This document shows positions 39,055-63,493 of a stretch of 64,000 nt of DNA, piece by piece. Source of the DNA: Actinomycetota bacterium (GTDB lineage: Bacteria > Actinomycetota > Coriobacteriia > Anaerosomatales > Anaerosomataceae); assembly GCA_009773565.1 (NCBI GenBank), contig WSXY01000005.1, positions 62,001 through 126,000 of the forward strand. Direction: 5' to 3'. The position numbers and the translations under genes were made by a program. The notes beneath the pieces are model-generated. The model was not told the DNA's origin and made no database searches. It was given only the letters and a program-made list of their open reading frames with translations. Positions within the stretch are counted from its first letter, which is position 1. Each line of letters begins with the position of its first letter.

Positions 39055-40773
39055 ATGTCAGTCACACTCAAGATGTCCGAGGTCTACGTTCCCACGCTCA
39101 AAGAAGTCCCCGCCGATGCCGAGATCATCAGCCATCAGCTGCTTCTGCGCGCCGGGATGATCCGTAAGGCCGCCGCGGGCATCTACTCGTTCTTGCCGCT
39201 TGGGTACCGCAGCGTCCGCAAGATCGAGCAGATCGTGCGCGAGGAGATGGACGGGATCGGGAGCCAGGAAGTGCTGCTCCCGATCGTGCAGCCCGCCGAG
39301 CTGTGGCGCGAGTCCGGCCGCTGGGAACTCTACGGCCCCGAGCTTGCCCGCCTGACCGACCGTGCCGGTCGCGAGTTCTGCCTCGGACCCACGCACGAGG
39401 AGATCATCACCGCGCTCGTGCGCAACGAGGTGCGCTCGTACCGTGAGCTGCCGCTGTCGCTCTACCAGATCAACATGAAGTTCCGCGACGAGATGCGCCC
39501 CCGCTTCGGGCTGCTGCGCGGCCGCGAATTCATCATGAAAGACGCGTACTCCTTCCACGACACGCAGGAGTCGCTCCAGGAGCACTATGACGCGCAGGCG
39601 GGCGCGTACGGGCGCATCTGCGAGCGCCTGAGCCTGGATTACCGCCCCGTGCAGGCCGACTCCGGCCAGATCGGCGGCAAGGTCACGACCGAGTTCATGG
39701 CGCTTGCCGAATCTGGCGAAGCCGAGCTTGTCTACTGCGACTGCGGATGGGCCGCCAACGTTGAGGCCGCTGACACCGTCGTGCCGAGGAACCGCGCCGT
39801 GACCGAGCCCGTGCCGATGGAGAAGGTGCCGACGCCGGACCTCCACACGATCGCCGAACTTGCGGCCGCGTTCAAGATCGCCGAGCACGACACCGTCAAG
39901 ACGATGGCCGGCAAGACCGCCGATGGCCGCCTCGTGTTCTTCTGTGTGCCCGGCGATCGCGAACTCAACCCCGTGAAGGCCGAGTGGGCCGTTCCCGGTG
40001 TGGAGCTGCTCGACGAGGACGACTTCAAGAAGTACGGCATCCCCAAGGGCTCGCTTGGCCCCGTGAACCCGCCCGTGGGCGCGCTCGTGGTCGCAGACGC
40101 GTCGCTCAAGGGCGACGTCGCCTGGGGCATCGGCGCGAACGACGACGGCTTCCACTTCTTTGGCGCCATGCCCGGCCGGGACTTCGAGGTCGAGCTGTGG
40201 GCAGACCTCGTGCTCGCACAGCCCGGCGACGGGTGCCCCGAGTGCGGTGGCACGCTCAAGGGCGCGCGCGGCATCGAGGTCAGCCAGGTCTTCCAGCTGG
40301 GCACGCGCTACTCCGAGACGATGGGCGCAACCTTCACCGCCGAGGACGGCAGCGAGCAGCACTTCCTCATGGGCTGCTACGGCGTGGGCGTAACGCGGTC
40401 GCTGGCGGCCGTCATCGAACAGCACAACGACGAGAACGGCATCGTGTGGCCGGTCGCGATCGCCCCGCTTGAGGTGGCCGTCGTGCCGCTCAACGTGGAC
40501 GAGGACGTCGTATGGCCCGTTGCCGAGGCAATCTGGCGCGAACTTGCCAAGGCCGGCGTCGAGGTCATTATCGACGACCGCGACGAGAGGGCTGGGGTCA
40601 AGTTCAACGACGCTGACCTAATCGGCTGGCCGTACCAGGTGGTCGTGGGCAAGAAGGGCGTGGCCGCCGGTGTGGTCGAGGTGAAGACCAGGGCGACAGG
40701 CGAGCGCGTCGAGGTCGCAATCGATGATGCGGCGCGGGTGGTCGCGGAGATGGTGCGGGTCGCGAAGGGGTAG
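39055..40773 (+). CDS. proS: Prolyl-tRNA synthetase (bacterial type)
   Basis: A 572-residue class II aminoacyl-tRNA synthetase. It has the bacterial-type arrangement: catalytic core (RAGMIRKAAAGIYSFLPLG, LGPTHEEIIT, QINMKFRDEMRPRFGLLRGREFIMKD split by function), an editing-type insertion around residues 230-390, and a C-terminal anticodon-binding domain (IIDDRDERAGVKFNDADLIGWP). ATG 39055 after AAGGAG. It is the last clearly core gene before the accessory array. Confidence 0.96.
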   Translation: MSVTLKMSEVYVPTLKEVPADAEIISHQLLLRAGMIRKAAAGIYSFLPLGYRSVRKIEQIVREEMDGIGSQEVLLPIVQPAELWRESGRWELYGPELARLTDRAGREFCLGPTHEEIITALVRNEVRSYRELPLSLYQINMKFRDEMRPRFGLLRGREFIMKDAYSFHDTQESLQEHYDAQAGAYGRICERLSLDYRPVQADSGQIGGKVTTEFMALAESGEAELVYCDCGWAANVEAADTVVPRNRAVTEPVPMEKVPTPDLHTIAELAAAFKIAEHDTVKTMAGKTADGRLVFFCVPGDRELNPVKAEWAVPGVELLDEDDFKKYGIPKGSLGPVNPPVGALVVADASLKGDVAWGIGANDDGFHFFGAMPGRDFEVELWADLVLAQPGDGCPECGGTLKGARGIEVSQVFQLGTRYSETMGATFTAEDGSEQHFLMGCYGVGVTRSLAAVIEQHNDENGIVWPVAIAPLEVAVVPLNVDEDVVWPVAEAIWRELAKAGVEVIIDDRDERAGVKFNDADLIGWPYQVVVGKKGVAAGVVEVKTRATGERVEVAIDDAARVVAEMVRVAKG

Positions 40774-40865
40774 GGTGCGGGGCAGCCGCGACCTAGGGGC
40801 TTACGCGGAATGCGTATCCCACGCGCCGATGTCAGTCTGGTGAGCTACACTGGTGGATGATTGTG

Positions 40866-40949
40866 GGGCAGTGAGCTGCCGCGAATGAATGTGTTCGCGT
40901 GCAACGCTACACATGTTACGCGCGCAGGCCGCTCACTCAAGGGTTAGGT
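40866..40949 (+). repeat. attC-like recombination site 1 (left edge of cassette array)
   Basis: The right arm ends in GTTAGGT (40943-40949), a full match to the GTTRRRY core, preceded by CTCACTCAAGG, close to the L-R arm of classical aadA attC sites. The left arm GTGAGCTGCCGC (from about 40871) pairs with GGCCGCTCAC on the right with mismatches. The outer left box is degenerate. First repeat after proS. Confidence 0.5.
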
Positions 40950-41442: not shown

Positions 41443-41528
41443 ACCTAACAAGCACATCCAGCTGACGCGCACGAGGTAGACTGACATGGACGGCATCGGC
41501 GCGCAGCTGATGCGCAAATGCGTTCGAC
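41443..41528 (+). repeat. attC-like recombination site 2
   Basis: 86 bp from ACCTAAC (41443-41449, RYYYAAC) to GTTCGAC (41522-41528). The inner arms CAGCTGACGCGC and GCGCGCAGCTG pair almost fully, with one unpaired T, as attC stems do. The 3' arm shares GCGCAA...GCGTT with sites at 45577 and 46283. Confidence 0.65.
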
Positions 41529-41559
41529 GCAGCACGATGGTTATTTGTGGAGGGGAAAC

Positions 41560-42987
41560 GTGAGCGATATTGTTCCTGCGGGGCCATCGGCCATGGACCT
41601 CGCGGCAGAGTCGACTGTGTTTCAACAGTACCTCGCCGCCTACGGGTTGCCGGTCGACAACGTTATTGCGACAACGGAACAGAGAGCGATCGTTGCCTCA
41701 AACCTGCCGTCGTTCCTCGATTCTCTATCGCCGGAAGAGAGGGGAAACGCCCGCTATCTCTCTAAGTTCGTCGGGGCGTCAGCGATCGGTCTCTTCGATG
41801 CGGCTCTGAACTACATCTGGAACGAAGTTGTTCTGAGTCTCCGTCAGAAGGCGTCCGTATACGGAATCGAGCTCTTCTATGACGCGGCGGTTGGCGGCAA
41901 GAACCGTGAGTTCTACAAGGACGAAGAGGACCTTGACGGGCTGAAAGACAGTGTCTTGCTCGACACCTGTCGCAAACTCGAATTGATCTCCGACATCGTC
42001 TACCGGAAACTCGACCACATTCTCACGATGCGAAACGAAGTGGCCGCGAGTCATCCCAACGTCGAAAGCATTGGCGGCTTCGAACTACTGGGATGGCTTC
42101 AGACGTGTGTGTCGGACGTGCTCCAAGACCGGATGTCGGACTCCGCCATCCGCATCAAGGCGCTCGTGGACAACATCAAGGCGCGCACTGATGTTCTGGA
42201 CCAGACCACTGCTGATCGGTTCGGCGAAGAACTCCCGAACTTAGCTTCATCCCACGTACAGAATCTGCTCGTGGCCATGTTTGGAATGTTCTGCTCGCCG
42301 GAATCAAACCAGATACTCAGGGCCAACATCGCCAAGATTGCGCCACTAGTTTGGGGCTGTGCGGACGATGACGTGAAGTATCGCATCGGGACAATTGTGG
42401 ACGGCTATCGCACGAACTTGCAGCAGGAGAAGCTCGCCAAAGGCGTCGAGTTCCTTGATTTGGTCGATGGCAAGAAGTACGAATCGTTGCCAGCCAAGAT
42501 CGTCGCACTTGAGAACCTCGCATCACAACTCGATGACGCTCATGACGGCCGGGACAATTTCTACAACGAGCCACCGATCATGCGACAGATTCTCGGCTAC
42601 ATGAACGACTCAACAGACATCCCGCGCGAGGTGCTTCCTCGGCTAACTCGCGTCGTGGTTCGATGTCGCCTTGGTCGCGGCTTGATGTACCGCGAGGGAG
42701 TCAGTCCGGCGGGCCGTTTGCTCTACGACCAGTTCCTTGGGATGCTCGACGATGCGGGAATCCTTGAATGCATCAAGGCGCTCTTCCGTCCGGACATCAA
42801 CTCGAAACTGAGCAATTCCATTTGTCGTCAGCATCTCGGATCGATTCTCACAATCTTGCGGGGAATCGCAATCTCAGAGCGGCTCAAGGAGATGCTCGAC
42901 TATCTCCTCGCTGACTTGGTCAAGGCCGGCAAAGCGAATCTCTACAAGGACTTCAAGGATCTATCAGTCCCACTGGTCACGTGGTAG
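41560..42987 (+). CDS. Large helical protein with HEPN-type Rx6H motif
   Basis: A 475-residue soluble, mainly helical protein. A central helix-rich region contains MRNEVAASHPN, which fits the R-N-x(5)-H form of the HEPN ribonuclease motif found in many anti-phage and toxin proteins. I do not recognise the rest. The GTG at 41560 follows GGAGGGG; the ATG at 41518 lies inside the repeat. The stop is 3 bp before the next attC-like box. A defensive RNase or abortive-infection role is inference. Confidence 0.6.
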   Translation: MSDIVPAGPSAMDLAAESTVFQQYLAAYGLPVDNVIATTEQRAIVASNLPSFLDSLSPEERGNARYLSKFVGASAIGLFDAALNYIWNEVVLSLRQKASVYGIELFYDAAVGGKNREFYKDEEDLDGLKDSVLLDTCRKLELISDIVYRKLDHILTMRNEVAASHPNVESIGGFELLGWLQTCVSDVLQDRMSDSAIRIKALVDNIKARTDVLDQTTADRFGEELPNLASSHVQNLLVAMFGMFCSPESNQILRANIAKIAPLVWGCADDDVKYRIGTIVDGYRTNLQQEKLAKGVEFLDLVDGKKYESLPAKIVALENLASQLDDAHDGRDNFYNEPPIMRQILGYMNDSTDIPREVLPRLTRVVVRCRLGRGLMYREGVSPAGRLLYDQFLGMLDDAGILECIKALFRPDINSKLSNSICRQHLGSILTILRGIAISERLKEMLDYLLADLVKAGKANLYKDFKDLSVPLVTW

Positions 42988-42990
42988 CAC

Positions 42991-43052
42991 GTCGAACAAA
43001 CGGATCAACCTGACTCGCTTCGCTCGCAGGTTATCCGTATAACACGTTGGAT
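42991..43052 (+). repeat. attC-like recombination site 3
   Basis: 62 bp from GTCGAAC (42991-42997) to GTTGGAT (43046-43052, GTTRRRY). ACGGAT and AACCTG on the left pair perfectly with CAGGTT and ATCCGT on the right, leaving one unpaired C on the left strand: the unpaired-base architecture of attC. It is almost identical over about 40 bases to the site at 48561. Confidence 0.85.
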
Positions 43053-43066
43053 GGAATCACGACATC

Positions 43067-43921
43067 ATGGGTCATCACACCGTCCCCCAGGAGTATCTTC
43101 GCGGCTTCGCGAGCCCCGCTCGCGAAGAGTACGTGTGGCTGCACGCGCGAGGAGACTCTGAACCGCGACACGTACCGATTGCCAAGGCCCTGCAGTCGCG
43201 TGGATTCTACCGCCCAGAGACTGAAGTCTCGCTTGCTCGTGATGTCGAGAAGCCGGCGAACGCCGTACTACGAAAGCTAGCCGCAGGAGATTCGATCACG
43301 GATGAAGAGAGGGCGCACTTCACCTACTACCTTGCGGTCATGCACGAGCGAGTACCTGCGGCGCGTCGCAAGATTGATGAGCTTGCCCCGGAAGTACTGG
43401 ACCGTGCCATCGAGAACACCCGCACCAAACTCCACGAGGTGGCTGACGACTCTGACATTGCGTCGGGGCGACTCGCAACTCGCCTGAGCGAATTGGACGA
43501 ACTGCACGTGAGGTATCGGGAGAAGATCCCGAAAGTAGTACTTGAAGATGCATACGAGCCATGGCCTGGCGAGCCAGTGCTCAACGCAATCTATTCGATG
43601 AACTGGCACATCCTCCGCACTGACGGTCCACAGTGCTTCGTAACCTGCGACAACCCCTTTTTCTACTTCGCTGAGCGAGGCATCGGCAATGCGCACTCCG
43701 AGGTCACGTTCCCGTTGACGACGAATGCAACCTTGAACTGCTCATGGCGACCATCGGCTGACAGGCTGGTCTTCAAGGATGTGACGCAGCGAATCGTGAA
43801 GAACATCAACCGTAGGTTGGCCAGCCACGCCGACACGGTGGTCATCTATCACGAACCTGCCCCTTGGATTCTGAGGCTGCTTTCCGCGGGCAGTGTTGCG
43901 CTCGAATCATTCACCCGGTAA
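43067..43921 (+). CDS. DUF4238 domain-containing protein
   Basis: A 284-residue protein matching the DUF4238 pattern: HHTVPQEYLRGFA at the N-terminus and FVTCDNPFFYF near residue 190, a signature recurrent in these proteins. The family is widespread on mobile elements and of unknown biochemistry. The ATG at 43067 is used. It is the single gene of its cassette, between repeats at 42991 and 43925. Confidence 0.75.
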   Translation: MGHHTVPQEYLRGFASPAREEYVWLHARGDSEPRHVPIAKALQSRGFYRPETEVSLARDVEKPANAVLRKLAAGDSITDEERAHFTYYLAVMHERVPAARRKIDELAPEVLDRAIENTRTKLHEVADDSDIASGRLATRLSELDELHVRYREKIPKVVLEDAYEPWPGEPVLNAIYSMNWHILRTDGPQCFVTCDNPFFYFAERGIGNAHSEVTFPLTTNATLNCSWRPSADRLVFKDVTQRIVKNINRRLASHADTVVIYHEPAPWILRLLSAGSVALESFTR

Positions 43922-43924
43922 TCC

Positions 43925-43997
43925 ATCTAACCCGCGGCTCTACACCGACGCGAACATGGTTGCCGCATAATGGGAGTGCATGCGCGCGGGTGAAGCG
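43925..43997 (+). repeat. attC-like recombination site 4 (degenerate)
   Basis: Begins with ATCTAAC (43925-43931, RYYYAAC) 3 bp after a stop codon. TAACCCGCG pairs with CGCGGGTGA (ending about 43993), giving GTGAAGC as the 3' core in place of GTTRRRY. Outer boxes are clear, inner arms weaker. Confidence 0.5.
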
Positions 43998-44029
43998 CAA
44001 GCACGTAGGCCTACTGGTGGGGGCGTCTC

Positions 44030-44773
44030 TTGACTTCAAGCGCGGGCAGCCGCCCGCTGGGTGACCATAAACGAGTCGGCAAGCGCTTCATCCCACCGAT
44101 GCTTGACGCAATGGGCGGACTGCTGAATGAGACGCCCTGGCGCCAGACTCTGCCAGAGCTAGTCTGGCTTGCGTGCCTACATTCGGGGTACGGAAACGCG
44201 CGTGGAACTGCATTGGCCGTCGTCCTCGCACGCGCAGTGGACGAGGCTCACCCTGAGCCACCCGAGCTTTTCGGGCCCGTTTCGAAGTTCTTGTCCCTAA
44301 GTCCGGAGGAGCAGGCGAGAATCCTTCTCATACTCGAGTCGAATGGCGACCTCGACGACCTGCGCAAAGGGCTTCGAAGCTTGAATGTCCTGTATCCGCG
44401 TTCGCCACTCCAATTCATCACTAACGACTGGGAGCACGCATCTGACCCCTTGAGACATGACGTGGAAGACTTCAAGGAGGTGCTCATGGACCTCTTTGAC
44501 AAGACCAGTCGGCAGGCAATTATAATGCAAGGCACCCTGATCTACGTGGCATTCGAACTCGATCGCCTACGAGTTGCGCCCGGTATCGGCTTGGCCCAGT
44601 TGCCTGAACTGGAGAACTACCCTGACACAGCCGAATCGCGGCTCGTTGCGGCCTCAGTAAGGTCGGCGGTTCCATTGCTCGTTCGACCGCCGGAAGAGGC
44701 ATACGAGACGGCTTGGTCCGCGTACTTCTGGAATCGAGGTCTTGAGATTGAACCGTGCAGGGCACAGCTATGA
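44030..44773 (+). CDS. Hypothetical protein, first gene of a two-gene cassette
   Basis: A 247-residue soluble protein beginning with a TTG at 44030 after GGTGGGGG. The early motif LGDHKRVGKRFIPPM is distinctive and recurs, to my memory, in proteins encoded next to DUF5677-like genes. No catalytic motif is evident. Its stop overlaps the next start as ATGA, so the pair is translated together within one cassette. Confidence 0.6.
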   Translation: MTSSAGSRPLGDHKRVGKRFIPPMLDAMGGLLNETPWRQTLPELVWLACLHSGYGNARGTALAVVLARAVDEAHPEPPELFGPVSKFLSLSPEEQARILLILESNGDLDDLRKGLRSLNVLYPRSPLQFITNDWEHASDPLRHDVEDFKEVLMDLFDKTSRQAIIMQGTLIYVAFELDRLRVAPGIGLAQLPELENYPDTAESRLVAASVRSAVPLLVRPPEEAYETAWSAYFWNRGLEIEPCRAQL

Positions 44774-45582
44774 ATGACAAGCGGCACCCCAACTTCGATG
44801 TCCTGTTCGCTGCGCTCGCGGAGTTCGACAGTAATGCTAGGACAGACGTCTCCTGCCGTTGGGACGAGCTCGGTGTAGACATCACTGAGAGTGAAACCAA
44901 GGAGGTGCTGGGCAGCCTGTTGTCCCGTCAGGCCAAACTGGCCATCGACTTGGTCCAGCAGCCCGGACTGTGGACCGCGCATTCCGCGCCCCTCTTCCTA
45001 CGAGCCATGGCTGATGTGCACATCACGCTGGCTTGGATTCTTGAACATCCCAAGGTGCGAAGTCGTCAGTTCATTCACTATGGGTTGGGTCAGGCCAAGC
45101 TCGACATCGAGAAGCGCAAGACGCGACTTGCGGCATCTGAACACACTGAGGCTGACGAGGAGTCGTTCGTCGAATTCCTTGAGTCATGGGTTGACTCCCA
45201 GCGCTATGCCTTCCTCACTGAAGTGAATGTGGGAAGCTGGTCTGGCGCGTCGACGCGTCAGATGGCGCATGATGCCGGACTGCACGACTACTACGACTAC
45301 GTGTACGTGCCATTCAGCGCGTGCGTTCACTCGACATGGCAGCACGTCGAGCGACTGAACACCGCGATGTGCGATAACCCCCTGCATCGATTCCACCGGG
45401 TTCCGTCCATCGTAGATGGCGGTAGGGACCCGCACTACTCGCTCCTAGCTGCACAGTACCTAGACGAGACTCTGACTATGGTCGACGAGGCGTTTGATCT
45501 GCACCCCTCTTGCTCGACTGCCTACCCTGGGCTGATTGAGGCGATCGCGGAGTACTTCAGCATCCCTGAGGACGAGGTCTAA
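44770..45582 (+). CDS. DUF5677-like protein
   Basis: A 270-residue helical protein resembling DUF5677: a helix bundle (AMADVHITLAWILEHPKVRSRQF) followed by WSGASTRQMAHDAGLHDYYDYVYVPFSACVHSTW, where the YxxxS-x-xVHxxW stretch is the family hallmark. Function unknown. The ATG overlaps the preceding stop, and its own TAA is inside the RYYYAAC box of the next repeat, the classic placement in integron cassettes. Confidence 0.65.
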   Translation: MNDKRHPNFDVLFAALAEFDSNARTDVSCRWDELGVDITESETKEVLGSLLSRQAKLAIDLVQQPGLWTAHSAPLFLRAMADVHITLAWILEHPKVRSRQFIHYGLGQAKLDIEKRKTRLAASEHTEADEESFVEFLESWVDSQRYAFLTEVNVGSWSGASTRQMAHDAGLHDYYDYVYVPFSACVHSTWQHVERLNTAMCDNPLHRFHRVPSIVDGGRDPHYSLLAAQYLDETLTMVDEAFDLHPSCSTAYPGLIEAIAEYFSIPEDEV

Positions 45583-45662
45583 CAAGCGCTTACGGCAGAA
45601 CGCCGCGCGCGTGTAGGCTGAAGAGAGGCGCTCGGCGTATGCTGAGCGCAACAACGTTATGC
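45577..45662 (+). repeat. attC-like recombination site 5
   Basis: 86 bp from GTCTAAC (45577-45583, exact RYYYAAC, containing the upstream stop codon) to GTTATGC (45656-45662). TAACAAGCGC at the left and GAGCGCAACAACGTT at the right are the outer arms, and GCGCTTACGGCAG...ACGCC pairs with GGCGTATGCTGAGCGC. TAACAAGCG / GTTATGC is strikingly like Vibrio-type repeats. Confidence 0.75.
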
Positions 45663-45691
45663 ACAACAGTTCGCACCGGGGGGTGGGGATC

Positions 45692-45919
45692 ATGCAGCGT
45701 TACACGAACATCGGCGGCGACTCGAGTGTTGCGGGTTACGAGTGTGCACCTGAATCCATCACTGTTCAGTTCACCGATGGCTGGAAGTACCTCTACACGT
45801 ACGCTAGCTGTGGGACGGTCAACTGTGAGCAAATGAAGAGTCTCGCAGCCTCGGGCGACGGCCTCAACTCGTTCATCATGCGAAACGTGCGAACAGGCTA
45901 CGCGCGGAAATGGCGCTAG
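45692..45919 (+). CDS. Small KTSC-like domain protein
   Basis: A 75-residue protein resembling the KTSC domain (a small beta-rich fold): VAGYECAPESITVQFTDG, YLYTYASCG and AASGDGLNSFI. The same domain occurs in the lipoprotein at 55804, in the same array. The ATG at 45692 follows GGGGTGGGGA. Role unknown; KTSC domains are often found beside nucleases or on mobile elements. Confidence 0.6.
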   Translation: MQRYTNIGGDSSVAGYECAPESITVQFTDGWKYLYTYASCGTVNCEQMKSLAASGDGLNSFIMRNVRTGYARKWR

Positions 45920-45931
45920 CTCGAGGCACAG

Positions 45932-45994
45932 CACGAACCTGCGCTGTGGTGTGATCAGTGATTGTCACACCTCCAGCGCACAATGCCGTCGGAC
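45932..45994 (+). repeat. attC-like recombination site 6
   Basis: TGCGCTG-t-GGTGTGA (45940-45954) pairs with TCACACC-tc-CAGCGCA (45965-45980): 14 paired bases with offset unpaired bases. Flanking boxes CACGAAC and GTCGGAC are only partial matches to the R boxes. It lies between two short genes. Confidence 0.45.
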
Positions 45995-46046
45995 GCGAGC
46001 GCGCGATGGCGAGCCAGACATGCGTCCGGGCGGGAGGTGATGTGCG

Positions 46047-46187
46047 ATGGCCACAATGGGTGAGAAACCTGGCAAGGGCACGTACAAGTGCACCAAGTGC
46101 GGGCAGCTCGTGGTGCTCGATGACTCCACGGACACGCTGCCGCCCTGCCCATCTTGCAACGGCACCAACTTCGTTAGAGTCGGCTAG
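46047..46187 (+). CDS. 46-residue zinc-ribbon protein
   Basis: A very small rubredoxin-like zinc ribbon with YKCTKCGQ and PCPSCNGTNF knuckles. The ATG at 46047 has an ideal GGGAGGTGA site upstream. The family of stand-alone ~45-residue zinc ribbons is common but uncharacterised. As the only gene of its cassette it shows that the array carries minimal cargo. Confidence 0.75.
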   Translation: MATMGEKPGKGTYKCTKCGQLVVLDDSTDTLPPCPSCNGTNFVRVG

Positions 46188-46200
46188 ATAGGCGCGCCAC

Positions 46201-46261
46201 CGCCACGTCGGCACCACTTGGAGTGAGTGTGCCGCCGAGGCGGACTGGCGTGTTGTTGAGT
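46201..46261 (+). repeat. attC-like recombination site 7 (partial)
   Basis: CGGCAC-c-ACT (46209-46218) pairs with AGTGTGCCG (46226-46234), leaving one unpaired C; CGCC (46201-46204) pairs with GGCG (46247-46250), and GTTGAGT (46255-46261) is an exact GTTRRRY. The left outer box is not recognisable. The next repeat begins only 22 bp later, so there may be a remnant cassette without a gene. Confidence 0.4.
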
Positions 46262-46282
46262 CCGATTCAGCTGCGTAGGTAT

Positions 46283-46368
46283 GCCTAACCCGCGCTTCCA
46301 CTCGACTCGCGCCAGGCGTCGCGAAATGGGAGCGCAAGCTCGCGAGTCAAGCGCAAGATGCGTTGTGC
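46283..46368 (+). repeat. attC-like recombination site 8
   Basis: 86 bp from GCCTAAC (46283-46289, exact RYYYAAC) to GTTGTGC (46362-46368). GCGCTT and GACTCGCG on the left pair with CGCGAGTCAAGCGC on the right. It overlaps the 5' end of the open frame of the following ATPase, showing that the long start at 46281 is false. Confidence 0.65.
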
Positions 46369-46397
46369 AGAGAGTACATTTGACTGGGGGCGGGGAT

Positions 46398-48566
46398 ATG
46401 GGGGGAGTCAGCGTTGACTTCAAGTATTGCTACGGGATAGGCGCTCTCAAACATGAGTTTGGATGTGCGGATGGACGCGTCTACCTGATCTATGCGCCCA
46501 ATGGCTCCATGAAGACGTCCTTTGCAAAGGCCTTCTTCGACAAGTCGAATGGCGACGAACCGAGCGACGTTGTTCGTCCAGAGCTTCCCGCGCAGTGCGA
46601 TATCACGGATTGCGAAGGCGTCCCGATTCCACCGGATCGCATCATGGTGGTGGAACCCTACCAGGAGAGTTACACGGCAAAGCGAATGTCCACGCTCATG
46701 GTGGACAAGAAGCTTCAGACGCGCTACCAGGAACTGGTCGAGTCCATCAATACCAAGCGCGATGCAGTAGTGAAAGCACTTGGGCAGAAAGGAGGGTACT
46801 CGCGAAACCCCGAAGACCCGCTACTCAAAGCATTTGATTTGGGCGCGGACGGGATCTACGAGGTACTGGTCCAACTACACTCGGCGATCGAAGACACTCC
46901 GGACCCCGGACTATCGCACATTGAGCACCGGCAGTTGTTCGATCCCAAAGTTGTTCAGTTCCTTGCCACGCCGGCGGCCCGACAGCACCTAGCGGAGTAC
47001 GTGGAGCGATACGACGAGCTGTTGGACCGATCGTCGTACTTTCGCCGTGGGGGCTTCGACAACTTCGGGGCTGTCAGCGTGGTCGGAGCGCTCGTGAAGC
47101 ATGGCTTCTTCGAGGCAAAGCATAGCGTCTCCCTTGTAGACCGCGATTCGAAGCCAACCGACCCGATCTCCAACAAGAGCGAATACGATGCGCTCATAGA
47201 ACGGGAAAAGTCTGCGATTCTGAGCGACCCCGAACTTTCAAAACGCTTTCACGCTCTCGACGACGCCTTCAATAAGAACGACCAGCTTCGAGGTCTTCGC
47301 AGCTATCTCGAAGCTCATCCCGAGGTGATATCGCAACTACAGGATCTGCCCGCCCTTGGGAGGAAGCTGTGGCTTTCGTACGCCTTCGCCGAAACCGAAG
47401 CAGTTGCGGAGTTCGCGAACACGTACACAAAAGCCCGCGCTCGGATTCTTGAGATTACGGAGGAGGCCAGTCGACAGCGCACCGAGTGGGAGCAAGCTGT
47501 CGAGGTATTCCATAACAGGTTCGAGGTACCATTCCGACTCAAGGTACAGAATCAGCAGGACGTGATTCTGAGGAATGAACTCCCGACCCTCGTCTTCCAT
47601 TGGAAATGCGAAGGGGAGCCCGAAATCACTCGGGGTGCACTCCTGACCGTGTTGAGCCAAGGCGAGAAGCGCGCGCTCTATCTTCTCAATGTCATCTTCG
47701 AGCTTGAAGCCCGGAAGAAGGATCCCGACGACACGGTTCTTGTAATCGACGACATTGCCGACTCATTCGATTACATCAACAAATACGCGATAGTGGAATA
47801 TCTCAACGATTTGCTGCAGTCGAACCGTTTCACGATGTTCATCCTCACACACAACTTCGACTTCTTTCGAACGGTCTGGAGTCGACTGGACGTTCATCGC
47901 CGGAACTGCCTAATGGCAGATAGCGATGATGCCGGCGCTTTTGAGCTTCTAGACGCCTCCTACCTCTACCAGCCCTTCAAGCGCTGGCGGAGCGGACTGG
48001 GCACGAATACGAGAATGCTCGTGGCTAGCATCCCGCTGATGCGCAATCTGATCGAATATGCTCGCGGCACGGATGACGAAAGGTACATCTTCCTGACCAA
48101 GCTCCTGCACGTGAAGCCTGAGACGGACAGCATTACCATGGACGCTCTCGCCGACGTCATCTCCGAGACTCTCGGAGTAGCAGCTCCTCGCGGGCAGGGG
48201 AAGGTCGTCGATGCGATTGCGGCTGCGGCACAGTCATGTATGAGCAACAGCAGCACGCCGCTGGATCTTGAGTCCAAGATTGTGTTGTCCATCGCAATCC
48301 GGCTTGTTGCAGAGAGGCTCATGCTTGCGGGGATACCTCCCCACAAAGCCGCCACGGCCATCGGGCCGAAGCAGACAAGGAACCTCTTCAAGTTGTACTT
48401 GGATGAGCAACCTGCTGAGCTAGGGCGCATTGCCCTGTTTGAGCGAGTGATGCTGATGACTCCGGAGTCAATTCACCTCAACTCATTCATGTACGAGCCG
48501 ATTCTGGACATGTCGGACCATCATCTGAGGACCTTGTATTCTGAGCTTGCACAGGTTCCTGCATAA
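46398..48566 (+). CDS. AAA_13-like ABC-type ATPase
   Basis: A 722-residue ATPase of the SMC/RecF-like AAA_13 kind seen in PrrC/RloC-type and other defence proteins. The P-loop is atypical, APNGSMKT at residues 33-40, with Ala33 and Met38 where Gly is usual; the signature LSQGEKRA starts at residue 419 and Walker B LVIDDIADSFDY has Asp451-Asp452. A helical insertion (about residues 90-370) separates the halves; the C-terminal ~200 residues are not recognised. ATG at 46398 after GGGGCGGGG. The TAA lies in the next attC-like box. Confidence 0.7.
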   Translation: MGGVSVDFKYCYGIGALKHEFGCADGRVYLIYAPNGSMKTSFAKAFFDKSNGDEPSDVVRPELPAQCDITDCEGVPIPPDRIMVVEPYQESYTAKRMSTLMVDKKLQTRYQELVESINTKRDAVVKALGQKGGYSRNPEDPLLKAFDLGADGIYEVLVQLHSAIEDTPDPGLSHIEHRQLFDPKVVQFLATPAARQHLAEYVERYDELLDRSSYFRRGGFDNFGAVSVVGALVKHGFFEAKHSVSLVDRDSKPTDPISNKSEYDALIEREKSAILSDPELSKRFHALDDAFNKNDQLRGLRSYLEAHPEVISQLQDLPALGRKLWLSYAFAETEAVAEFANTYTKARARILEITEEASRQRTEWEQAVEVFHNRFEVPFRLKVQNQQDVILRNELPTLVFHWKCEGEPEITRGALLTVLSQGEKRALYLLNVIFELEARKKDPDDTVLVIDDIADSFDYINKYAIVEYLNDLLQSNRFTMFILTHNFDFFRTVWSRLDVHRRNCLMADSDDAGAFELLDASYLYQPFKRWRSGLGTNTRMLVASIPLMRNLIEYARGTDDERYIFLTKLLHVKPETDSITMDALADVISETLGVAAPRGQGKVVDAIAAAAQSCMSNSSTPLDLESKIVLSIAIRLVAERLMLAGIPPHKAATAIGPKQTRNLFKLYLDEQPAELGRIALFERVMLMTPESIHLNSFMYEPILDMSDHHLRTLYSELAQVPA

Positions 48567-48621
48567 CCCGCAGATCAACCTGACTCGCTTCACTCGCAGG
48601 TCATCCGCTAGAACGCTGGAG
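48561..48621 (+). repeat. attC-like recombination site 9
   Basis: 61 bp from GCATAAC (48561-48567, with the ATPase stop codon inside) to GCTGGAG (48615-48621). The central segment GATCAACCTGACTCGCTT and the following CGCAGGT-ATCCG match site 3 (42991-43052) nearly base for base. Confidence 0.8.
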
Positions 48622-50825: not shown

Positions 50826-51779
50826 TTGAAGTTTGAGTCCATAGAGATTTGTTCGGGCGCTGGCGGACAAGCGCTGGGTCTTGAGTTGGCCGGTTTCGCT
50901 CATTCGGCGCTCGTAGAGATCGAGCCCGTCGCCTGTGAGACTCTGCGGCTGAATCGTCCTACTTGGAACGTGGTTGAAGGCGACCTGCGAGCGTTCAATG
51001 CCACATCATTCAAGGGAATTGGCTTGCTGGCTGGCGGCGTTCCTTGTCCGCCGTTCTCTAGGGCTGGCAAGCAGCTAGGCGCTGACGATGACCGGGACAT
51101 GTTTCCCGAGGCCATAAGGCTGGTTGACGAGTGCCGTCCGCAGGCCGTGATGCTTGAAAACGTTAGAGGACTACTTGACGCCGTCTTTGACGACTATCGC
51201 AACAAGGTTGAGAAGCAGCTCAAGGCCCTCGGCTACGTGCCGGGATGGCGCCTGCTCAGTGCATCCGACTTTGGAGTATCCCAGCTGCGCCCTCGGGTAG
51301 TCTTCGTGGGGCTACGCAAGGATGTGGCGGATCAGTTCGAGTGGCCAACTCCCTACGCCACCCGCCCCTCTACCGTCGGCACGCTACTACATGACCTGAT
51401 GGGGGAGAATGGTTGGCGTGGAGTAGACCAGTGGCGCGACCGCGCAGACGCCATTGCGCCTACGCTTGTCGGGGGCTCGAAGCGACATGGCGGACCAGAT
51501 CTCGGCCCGACCCGAGCCCGACGCGCCTGGGAGTCTCTCGGTGTTGACGGCCGCGGCCTGTGGGATGCAGCTCCAGATCCGGATTTCGTTGGAATGCCGC
51601 GGCTCACCACGCGTATGACTGCACGCGTCCAGGGCTTCCCTGACGATTGGCGGTTCGCTGGACGGAAGACGGCCACCTATCGCCAGATCGGCAATGCATT
51701 CCCGCCGCCGGTCGCTGAGGCGGTTGCCCGCCAAATCATCGCTGCACTGTCCGCCAGGCGCAGCTTCCGAGTAGCCTGA
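50826..51779 (+). CDS. DNA (cytosine-5-)-methyltransferase of a type II R-M system
   Basis: A 317-residue C5 methyltransferase. Motif I is FESIEICSGAGGQALGLELA, catalytic Cys74 is in VPCPPFSRAG, motif VI is ENVRG (Glu111), motif VIII QLRPRVVFVG, and motifs IX-X RVQGFPDDW and QIGNAFPPPVAEAVARQI. Start is the TTG at 50826 with GAAGGG upstream; the ORF opens earlier but that part is non-homologous and holds the LexA-box promoter. It overlaps the nuclease gene by 1 bp. Target inferred from the partner: GCCGGC. Confidence 0.9.
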   Translation: MKFESIEICSGAGGQALGLELAGFAHSALVEIEPVACETLRLNRPTWNVVEGDLRAFNATSFKGIGLLAGGVPCPPFSRAGKQLGADDDRDMFPEAIRLVDECRPQAVMLENVRGLLDAVFDDYRNKVEKQLKALGYVPGWRLLSASDFGVSQLRPRVVFVGLRKDVADQFEWPTPYATRPSTVGTLLHDLMGENGWRGVDQWRDRADAIAPTLVGGSKRHGGPDLGPTRARRAWESLGVDGRGLWDAAPDPDFVGMPRLTTRMTARVQGFPDDWRFAGRKTATYRQIGNAFPPPVAEAVARQIIAALSARRSFRVA

Positions 51780-52642
51780 TGTACGGCCCCGTCCAGTTTG
51801 CCGAAGCACGAAAGGCCTTCCACGACGCACTTCTACGAACATGCCTTACCATCGATTCGCAGGGGCGCCCTAGCAACAGCGACAGTTCGAATCAGACCAG
51901 CATCAAACTGGCAAAGGGAATTGCCGACCTCTTGAAGGCCGAGACTGTGGGCGAGCGAGCTGCGGGTCAGACTTCCGGCAACCAGTTCGAGGCCGTATGC
52001 GCTGAGTATGTCCGGCTAACGTTTCTGAAGCTCGGACACTTGCGACCTGGCAAGTGGGATGTACAGCACGTCAGAGGTCACAACCGTCTGGAGATCGCTC
52101 GCTACGAGCAGTACTCCCATCTCGTCGCACTCGATAAGGCGGCGCGCAATGACCCTGAGTTGGCTGCGGCGCTCGGAAGCGACTACACCATCACTCCAGA
52201 CGTCGTAATCGTTCGCCAGACCGAAGACGACGCCGCTATCAACGCCACGGAGCAGCTCGTTGATGACCGAGTGGCGACGCTCGCAAGCCTGCGGAGCCGG
52301 GACGGAGGACTGCCTCTGCTGCACGCAAGCATCTCCTGCAAGTGGACGATTCGGAGCGATCGCGCGCAGAACGCACGGTCCGAAGCGCTGAACCTCGTTC
52401 GCAATCGCAAGGGCCGTCTTCCGCACGTCGTCGTCGTGACGGCTGAGCCCACCCCAAGCCGACTTGCATCCATTGCCCTGGGTACCGGAGATGTCGACTG
52501 CGTCTACCACTACGCGCTGTACGAGCTGCAGGAGACTATTGAGGCACTCGGAATGGACGATGCCGCAGATACACTTGCCGTGATGGTCAACGGCGACCGG
52601 CTCAAGGACATTTCCGATTTGCCGCTCGATCTGGCTGTATAA
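51779..52642 (+). CDS. NgoMIV-family type II restriction endonuclease
   Basis: A 287-residue endonuclease matching the NgoMIV/Cfr10I group. The permuted active site is visible: Asp141 in ITPDVVIV, Ser186 and Lys188 in SISCKW, and Glu202 in SEALNLVRNRKGRLPHVVVV, one residue off the positions I recall for NgoMIV. By family it would cut G^CCGGC. Start ATG overlaps the methyltransferase TGA, so enzyme and protector are translationally linked. The window contains GCCGGC sites (for example near 1522 and 22876), consistent with an active methylase. Confidence 0.85.
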   Translation: MYGPVQFAEARKAFHDALLRTCLTIDSQGRPSNSDSSNQTSIKLAKGIADLLKAETVGERAAGQTSGNQFEAVCAEYVRLTFLKLGHLRPGKWDVQHVRGHNRLEIARYEQYSHLVALDKAARNDPELAAALGSDYTITPDVVIVRQTEDDAAINATEQLVDDRVATLASLRSRDGGLPLLHASISCKWTIRSDRAQNARSEALNLVRNRKGRLPHVVVVTAEPTPSRLASIALGTGDVDCVYHYALYELQETIEALGMDDAADTLAVMVNGDRLKDISDLPLDLAV

Positions 52643-54389: not shown

Positions 54390-54477
54390 GTCCAACCATC
54401 GATCCAGATGATACGCAACTGTGTTGGCTGGCGAAGAGAGGGCTTCGGTGCGAAGCTAAAGCGTTGAACCGTTGGAC
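54390..54477 (+). repeat. attC-like recombination site 11
   Basis: 88 bp from GTCCAAC (54390-54396) to GTTGGAC (54471-54477): the two R boxes are exact reverse complements and both fit consensus. An inner GGCTTCG/CGAAGC hairpin lies within. It begins 10 bp after a stop codon. Confidence 0.6.
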
Positions 54478-58937: not shown

Positions 58938-59180
58938 ATGAAGACGAAGGTCCAGAAATGGGGCAACAGCCTCGCCGTCAGGATTCCCAAGACGTTCGCG
59001 GAAGAGGTCGGCCTCAAGGACGACTCTTCTATCGAGATGCGTCTCGTGAAGGGCGGTCTACTCCTGGAGCCCACATCAGAATGGACGCCGAGCCTCGATG
59101 AAATGCTCGCGACCGTCACCGATTCCAACCTGCACGACGAGGTAGAAACAGGCCCGGCTCAGGGTTCGGAGGCGTGGTAG
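58938..59180 (+). CDS. mazE: MazE-type AbrB-fold antitoxin
   Basis: An 80-residue antitoxin with the swapped-hairpin DNA-binding domain of the AbrB/MazE class (VQKWGNSLAVRIPKTFAEEVGL, EMRLVKGGLLLEP) and a short acidic tail that would neutralise the toxin. ATG 58938 after GGGGAGG, own promoter upstream. It ends 2 bp before the toxin start. Confidence 0.92.
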   Translation: MKTKVQKWGNSLAVRIPKTFAEEVGLKDDSSIEMRLVKGGLLLEPTSEWTPSLDEMLATVTDSNLHDEVETGPAQGSEAW

Positions 59181-59182
59181 CC

Positions 59183-59518
59183 ATGACGTGGGCACCTGAA
59201 CGCGGCGACGTGGTCTGGATCACGATGAACCCGAGCGTCGGACACGAGCAGCTTGGTCGCAGGCCCGCCCTCGTCCTCTCGCCGGGCTCCTACAACCGCA
59301 AGGTGGGCCTCGCGATACTGTGCCCGATCACCAGCCAGGTGAAGGGCCACCCGTTTGAGGTCGCAGTCCCGGATGGACTTCTCTTACAGGGCGTCATCCT
59401 GTCGGACCAAGCGAAGAGCCTCGACTGGAGGTCCCGTGGCGCCGAGTTGGCGTGCACGCTTCCGCCGGCGAGCGTCACGGAGGTCCTGCAGAAGCTGGGC
59501 AGGCTGGTCGCACCGTAG
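59183..59518 (+). CDS. mazF: MazF-type mRNA interferase toxin
   Basis: A 111-residue MazF/PemK toxin that cleaves RNA. Motifs: PERGDVVWITMNPSVGHEQLGRRPALVLS, CPITSQVKGHPFEV, ILSDQAKSLDWRSR. ATG 59183 is preferred; the GTG at 59174 would overlap mazE. Confidence 0.93.
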   Translation: MTWAPERGDVVWITMNPSVGHEQLGRRPALVLSPGSYNRKVGLAILCPITSQVKGHPFEVAVPDGLLLQGVILSDQAKSLDWRSRGAELACTLPPASVTEVLQKLGRLVAP

Positions 59519-59574
59519 GACCAGGATTCCTCGAGTAGTTGAAGCGTCAGGGCAGATTTGGGAGGGACAGGAAC

Positions 59575-62158: not shown

Positions 62159-62231
62159 CTCGAACCGCGTCAGGCGGGGTAGAGTAACCTTGACGGTATC
62201 AGCGCGCAGTTGTCGCGCGCGTGCGTTCGAT
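62159..62231 (+). repeat. attC-like recombination site 12
   Basis: CTCGAAC (62159-62165) to GTTCGAT (62225-62231). The right part matches site 2 over about 50 bases (shared CGCGCAG and TGCGTTCGA), showing that the array or a decayed piece of it reaches at least here. Confidence 0.5.
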
Positions 62232-62954: not shown

Positions 62955-63259
62955 TGCACGACTTGATCGTTCGCCCGGACGCGGAAGCCGACATCACTGA
63001 CGCTGCGCTTTGGTACGAGGGGCAGTCGCAGGGTCTCGGATCCGATTTTCTGCGCTCGGTCGATGCCTGCCTCGCTGACGTCGCCAGGGCGCCACAACGG
63101 TTCCCGGTTATTCATCGTGAGCTGCATCGAGCGTTGCTCCGACGATTCCCATACGGTCTGTTCTTCGTTGCGGCGAATGGCTCCATCACTGTTGTCGCTT
63201 GCCTGCACGCTCGCAGGAATCCGCAACAATGGAGCCAGCGCCTGCGACGCGGACGCTAG
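62954..63259 (+). CDS. parE: ParE/RelE-type toxin
   Basis: A 101-residue ParE-superfamily toxin: VRPDAEADITDAALWYE at the start and FPYGLFFVAANGSITVVACLHARRNPQQW at the end, both hallmark segments. Third toxin-antitoxin module in about 4.5 kb. Confidence 0.88.
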   Translation: MHDLIVRPDAEADITDAALWYEGQSQGLGSDFLRSVDACLADVARAPQRFPVIHRELHRALLRRFPYGLFFVAANGSITVVACLHARRNPQQWSQRLRRGR

Positions 63260-63313
63260 CCAGCGCATCCGGCAGGCGTGCACGAGGTAGGTCCGCTTTA
63301 GGGGGAGGCACAC

Positions 63314-63493
63314 ATGCCGATAGTCGGAGACCCACAGGGGACCCAGGCACGTGCAACGGCCTCTGAGCCCGTCCACCCGAAGAGCGCCCAAGACGAGACA
63401 CCCGCCGGCTATGGCTGGAAGCAACTCCTTGCGGTAGGCCTCGTGGTCGGCGTGCCGATTCTGCTGTATCTCATCGTGACCTGGATTCGCTAG
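63314..63493 (+). CDS. Small single-pass membrane protein
   Basis: A 59-residue protein with a polar N-terminus and one C-terminal helix (LLAVGLVVGVPILLYLIVTWI). ATG 63314 follows GGGGGAGG. Function unknown. Confidence 0.6.
   Translation: MPIVGDPQGTQARATASEPVHPKSAQDETPAGYGWKQLLAVGLVVGVPILLYLIVTWIR

Follow-up and report, generated by a model that had tools for sequence, protein, structure and literature searches.

Look-alike attC sites in an integrase-less cassette array after proS, and the putative attI-like leader that heads it

Two look-alike sites, C and G, bracket 5.5 kb of the window (the whole 64,000-nucleotide stretch analysed here). Very probably, both are ordinary members of a ~60-nt attC type in a CALIN (cluster of attC sites lacking an integron integrase; IntegronFinder, PMC9024848) which follows proS and is headed by an attI-like leader, the block between them being four cassettes and no mobile unit. 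The C/G pair itself is ordinary; interest attaches to the array with its head.

The cassette array between proS and rimP

In the host genome 30.7 kb separates proS from rimP, and the C-to-G block is part of that insert. In array-free relatives rimP comes directly after proS, followed by genes read as nusA and infB; the gap is empty in G017, G016, G015, G009, and G013. It is filled in G018 (16.9 kb, an attC array), and in G019 an array reaches the contig end. The proS arrays of the host, G018, and G019 have a common place and different genes. No integron integrase was found in the window, where the tyrosine recombinase reaches no more than 69 bits versus a TIGR02249 cutoff of 265; the proS array, with no such integrase nearby, is in this respect a CALIN. 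Its features are as follows (R1, covariance model built on the short, ~60-nt attC type; R2, further attC covariance model).

39502-40773, +, 3' part of proS (proline--tRNA ligase; NCBIfam PRK09194/TIGR00409), left neighbour of the insert
40799-40949, +, attI-like leader, 25 nt past the proS stop; counterparts in G018 (L114:1985) and G019 (L115:2113)
41443-41528, +, attC B, resident 86-nt type; R2 99.9 bits; 93% to an integrase-linked site
41518-42987, +, 489-aa ORF (ORF list) of the cassette ending in site C; no Pfam or PADLOC match
42991-43052, +, attC C; R1 80.8 bits; fold z -1.62; R' GTTGGAT intact
43067-43921, +, DUF4238 gene (PF14022, 98 bits)
43925-44011, +, attC D; R1 20.7 bits; R' GTAGGCC, GTT lost; 86-88% matches in G016 and G145
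44030-44773 and 44755-45582, +, two overlapping genes, the second DUF5677; each weakly matches half of DitA
45577-45662, +, attC E; R2 53.4 bits
45659-46187, +, 86-aa ORF and 46-aa zinc-ribbon gene (ORF and profile matches)
46283-46368, +, attC F; R1 38.0 bits
46398-48566, +, AAA ATPase gene, defence candidate PDC-S46 (PADLOC PDLC05023, 785 bits)
48561-48621, +, attC G; R1 70.3 bits; fold z 0.17; R' GCTGGAG, GTT lost
50829-52642, +, to the right of the block, genes for a C5 methyltransferase and a type II restriction enzyme (PADLOC)
54390-54477, +, attC H; R2 36.6 bits; R boxes intact, GTCCAAC / GTTGGAC
62159-62231 and 63254-63325, +, two degenerate attC-like sites; R2 25.8 and 29.5 bits

Sites C and G do bracket six genes, as the original prediction had it. 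These are distributed over four cassettes split by attCs D, E, and F, in the order C, DUF4238 gene, D, the two overlapping genes, E, the 86-aa and zinc-ribbon genes, F, PDC-S46 ATPase gene, G. The remark that other sites differ strongly from this pair was also correct, since B, D, E, F, and H are 86 to 88 nt long and, by the R1 and R2 models, of other sequence types. The six sites B to G are spaced 0.6 to 2.2 kb apart and H lies 5.8 kb beyond; because of its presence at 54390-54477, the idea that the array ends on the right at site G, in a junction with a secondary insertion site, was rejected. With the PDC-S46 ATPase and the restriction-modification pair, the proS array carries defence-type genes. 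A MazE/MazF-like toxin-antitoxin pair was recognised by eye at window positions 58939-59519, inside the post-proS insert.

Likeness of sites C and G

The coordinates originally given for the two look-alike sites were exact. Site C runs from R'' GTCGAAC, starting at 42991, to R' GTTGGAT, stopping at 43052, and site G from R'' GCATAAC, starting at 48561, to GCTGGAG in the R' position, stopping at 48621. Their ungapped match, GATCAACCTGACTCGCTTC(G/A)CTCGCAGGT(T/C)ATCCG, comprises 33 of 35 central bases, and identity is 45/61 over the full site and 12/26 outside the 35-nt core. The likeness therefore spans the central arms and loop, less than the whole site, and the recombination boxes differ. A 26-nt C/G core, allowing up to 3 mismatches, has two matches in the window (none in 100 shuffles) and two in the entire 2.27-Mb genome, i.e., C and G alone.

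Compared with the consensus boxes R'' RYYYAAC and R' GTTRRRY, site C agrees in 6/7 and 7/7 positions and has the boxes of an attC. Site G, in contrast, reads GCT at the GTT triplet that is kept in 29 of 31 sites of the short type, and it folds no better than its own shuffles. By descent, site G is of the short attC type (R1 70.3 bits), but it may have lost its function and is probably now inactive or nearly so; lacking the GTT and folding weakly, it would make a poor excision partner. The two sites also look like different subtypes, C having AACAAACGG.. and G AACCCGCRG...

The attC-like label has been borne out. Across 31 short-type sites 97.8% of the L-arm cells are paired and 9 of 12 arm pairs are doubly changed; the covariation score is 0.375, as compared with 0.133 for shuffles and no more than 0.078 when the partners are slid. 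C and G hence belong to a genuine attC type with strong compensatory changes, with the single-strand arms and bulged base of the attC hairpin. A search of Rfam reported no attC family, only two chance matches. In the usual picture of attC sites the apical part is variable; the short type, with its near-invariant apex GACTCGCTTCGCTCGC and arms that vary in pairs, is the opposite. It is because the type retains this apex and similar arms, not because of copying, that C and G resemble each other.

Among the matches listed, 37 sites score at least 60 bits with R1; they are spread over 17 of the 27 family genomes, at 1 to 6 copies per carrying genome (six in G020), and are intermixed with other attC types. 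Within the 31 short-type sites, which come from related genomes, the C-G full-site identity of 75.4% ranks 234th of 465 pairs (median, 76.3%). The nearest relatives of C are sites in G022 and G020 and those of G sites in G019, G018, and G005, all in other genera. As C and G are no more alike than a random pair, their likeness reflects type membership and says little about a donor or a unit, which leaves the original suggestion that the two cassettes came from the same source array weak, the more so for sites apparently of different subtypes. Against 298 genomes of the class, a collection holding one genome of the host genus, the 8.3-kb region gave matches nearly confined to attCs C, D, E, F, and G, with hardly any to the genes, and in none of these genomes were the same cassettes found together.

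An exact 28-mer scan matched eight loci in metagenome-assembled genomes labelled Fermentibacteria, Chloroflexi, Nitrospirae, Thermoleophilia, and "Aeromicrobium." A cross-phylum spread of the C/G core was rejected: three of the genomes, with four of the eight loci between them, belong to the host's own family, with identical coordinates in G027/G022, G029/G020, and G033/G005. The Chloroflexi, Nitrospirae, and Fermentibacteria matches are single short-type sites on contigs of 3 to 24 kb that may be misbinned. The Thermoleophilia match is solid (a 4.6-Mb contig with several attCs), and since it alone is so, wide exchange is not claimed. The integron integrase gene of the Thermoleophilia genome (G032:C1:3325015-3325845) is interrupted by two stop codons.

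A single intact integrase and scattered resident arrays

The only match above the TIGR02249 cutoff in the host genome is on contig C3 (99419-100360; 481 bits). This gene encodes a full-length IntI with no stops, which aligns end to end with structure 2a3v and has the catalytic R, HxxR, H, and Y positions conserved. Resident-type attCs come after it on C3, and in the genome as a whole the resident 86-nt attC has 26 matches on seven contigs (C3, C24, C20, C1, C12, C16, and C17), so that the arrays are dispersed and are the probable cause of the breaks in the assembly. Integron integrases were found in 22 of 27 species of the host's family and in 16 of 396 sampled genomes of the phylum. The prevalence in this one actinobacterial family contrasts with IntegronFinder 2.0, by which no complete integrons were reported in Actinobacteria (PMC9024848). 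In several relatives (L092, L101, and L094) a BrnT/BrnA-like toxin-antitoxin pair, recognised by eye, lies between intI and the array, and on the host's C3 there is a different toxin-antitoxin-like pair in that place.

The GTT triplet is kept in 6/9 sites of the proS array versus 12/12 on contigs C3, C24, and C20, a small sample that takes C24 and C20 to be linked to C3. Decay of the R' boxes as proof of a dead array is unsupported, as full GTTRRRY matches are rare also on the integrase-linked contigs (2/8).

Leaders at the heads of arrays

Leaders in the family consist of a motif, GCTTACACAGACTGC, and a GTTAG-type insertion point ~100 to 160 nt further on, with the elements CAGACTGC / GCAGTCTG. 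In several genomes of the family the motif was found past the stop of intI; it was also found at the heads of integrase-less arrays, 14 of which, in 12 genomes and including that of the window, carry a leader. Among 18 listed motif matches less than 5 kb from an attC, in related and hence not independent genomes, the attC is downstream on the same strand in 17, upstream in none, and on the other strand in one. Matches in coding sequence without an attC (L168, L171, L174 to L177, L179, and L180) were left out. About half of the leaders have the inverted partner GCAGTCTG (0 to 1 mismatch) 18 to 19 nt before the insertion point, versus 3% of random 60-mers with a match anywhere. Most heads begin 12 to 36 nt past a stop codon, i.e., that of proS (three genomes, at 18 to 25 nt), aspartate kinase (three), UvrC, a DinG/YoaA-type helicase, or an ABC transporter.

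The window leader has a degenerate 5' motif, GCTTACGCGGAATGC, and at its 3' end GCAGGCCG..GGGTTAGGT with a G|TT insertion point. It is the most degenerate of all, with 3 mismatches, at which level matches arise by chance, and it is assigned because of its position and its G018 and G019 counterparts. Leaders beside intI adjoin that gene and end at G|TT. The proS leader, which ends at G|TT without an adjacent intI, is a putative attI.

Array pieces on contigs C12 and C16 have no recognisable leader. For two leader-like elements, L178 (G000:C2:15335) and L170 (G019:C2:271254), no downstream attC was found; these are perhaps emptied heads. In three genomes of one genus, a leader and array stand 18 to 19 nt after aspartate kinase, ~15 kb past proS (L120:15862, L122:15415, and L129, minus strand, 2300). 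In G018 an integrase-less leader comes after a DinG/YoaA-type helicase gene (L165:344), and a similar gene end lies upstream of the host's own C3 intI (L001:1-220), so that one orthologous locus may hold an integrase in one genome and lack it in another.

Origin of the block and its array

In our proposed explanation, the short attC type would circulate through this family of Actinomycetota, and the chromosome's single IntI, encoded on another contig, would add cassettes in trans, both at the attI-like heads and from one attC to the next, and would now and then excise them. Each incoming cassette would bring its own attC, which would make the 5.5-kb block four successive cassettes. This supposes that IntI acts on the proS array.

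attC recombination is governed by the folded structure and not by the sequence identity of the pair, IntI recombining the bottom strand. That C and G bound a unit whose four cassettes enter or leave jointly by C × G recombination is very unlikely: the 35-nt core is otherwise absent from the genome, which has an intact IntI, but sequence likeness is not what the integrase requires, three attCs lie inside the block and more outside, site G is without the GTT, and the block genes occur together in no other genome searched. Excision of the block as one unit, as originally envisaged, is possible in principle because the genome has an intact IntI, albeit on another contig; with D, E, and F inside, further sites outside, and the GTT of G lost, such an event, possible on paper, would be among the least likely of those available. 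It is also quite improbable that the cassettes ending in C and G stem from one donor array with the short type as its resident attC, the rest coming from elsewhere. The difference between the C/G type and the resident 86-nt attC and the six short-type sites of G020 would fit such a donor, but C and G resemble each other no more than random pairs do, their nearest relatives are in different genomes, and the type, among the matches listed, is present in 17/27 family genomes in 1 to 6 copies mixed with other types.

As to the head of the array, we tentatively suggest, with confidence a little short of even, a family-wide dispersed integron in which one chromosomal integrase has several attI-like landing sites just past the stops of housekeeping genes (proS, aspartate kinase, uvrC, and the DinG-type helicase gene), each heading an integrase-less array. 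An integrase-less array is ordinarily taken for a broken integron, and the proS array could be the dead remnant of an integron that was once complete, with the integrase lost and the leader as its leftover attI. This is a real possibility, if a doubtful one. The leader resembles the attI region beside intI, several R' boxes in the array are decayed, and the DinG-type helicase gene occurs both before the integrase-less G018 leader and, as a similar gene end, upstream of the host's intI; however, the leader stands 18 to 25 nt past the proS stop in three genomes with no intI trace between, and integrase-less heads occupy many loci of one family beside a single intact intI. That the motif is instead a promoter or other regulatory element common to array heads seems rather unlikely. 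Terminator- and promoter-like sequence was seen by eye in some leaders (L164 and L173), but the leader stops at the G|TT insertion point, stands past intI stops, and has its inverted partner 18 to 19 nt before that point. If the dispersed, leader-headed reading is true, the integrase-less arrays would be extra landing places still open to the integrase in trans. No description of an orphan or multiple attI, or of one integrase serving several attI-like sites, was found in the open-access papers searched.

Comparison with known systems

In the sedentary chromosomal integron of Vibrio a genome-typical attC (VCR) is repeated many times. The host genome likewise repeats a resident attC (26 matches), but with its arrays dispersed across several contigs and a second, short attC type among them. 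The proS array is like other CALINs, which according to PMC12444791 and PMC9668308 can be mobilised in trans, in having several attCs, one cassette orientation, and no integrase nearby; it differs in its host, a member of the Actinomycetota, and in being headed by an attI-like leader in common with the integrase locus. The CALINs of Xanthomonas, as presented in part of PMC12444791, are located at the conserved loci lamG, secF, and recD, with intI elsewhere, at ilvD. Here too integrase-less arrays are found at equal chromosomal places in several species; attI-like heads are not described in that part of the source, whereas in the present family most heads lie 12 to 36 nt past a stop codon. Finally, as in integrons with an inverted integrase, which are mentioned in PMC8352920, the host intI is transcribed towards the array with attI past its stop codon; the host's family differs in that similar heads also stand at other loci, on additional arrays without an integrase.
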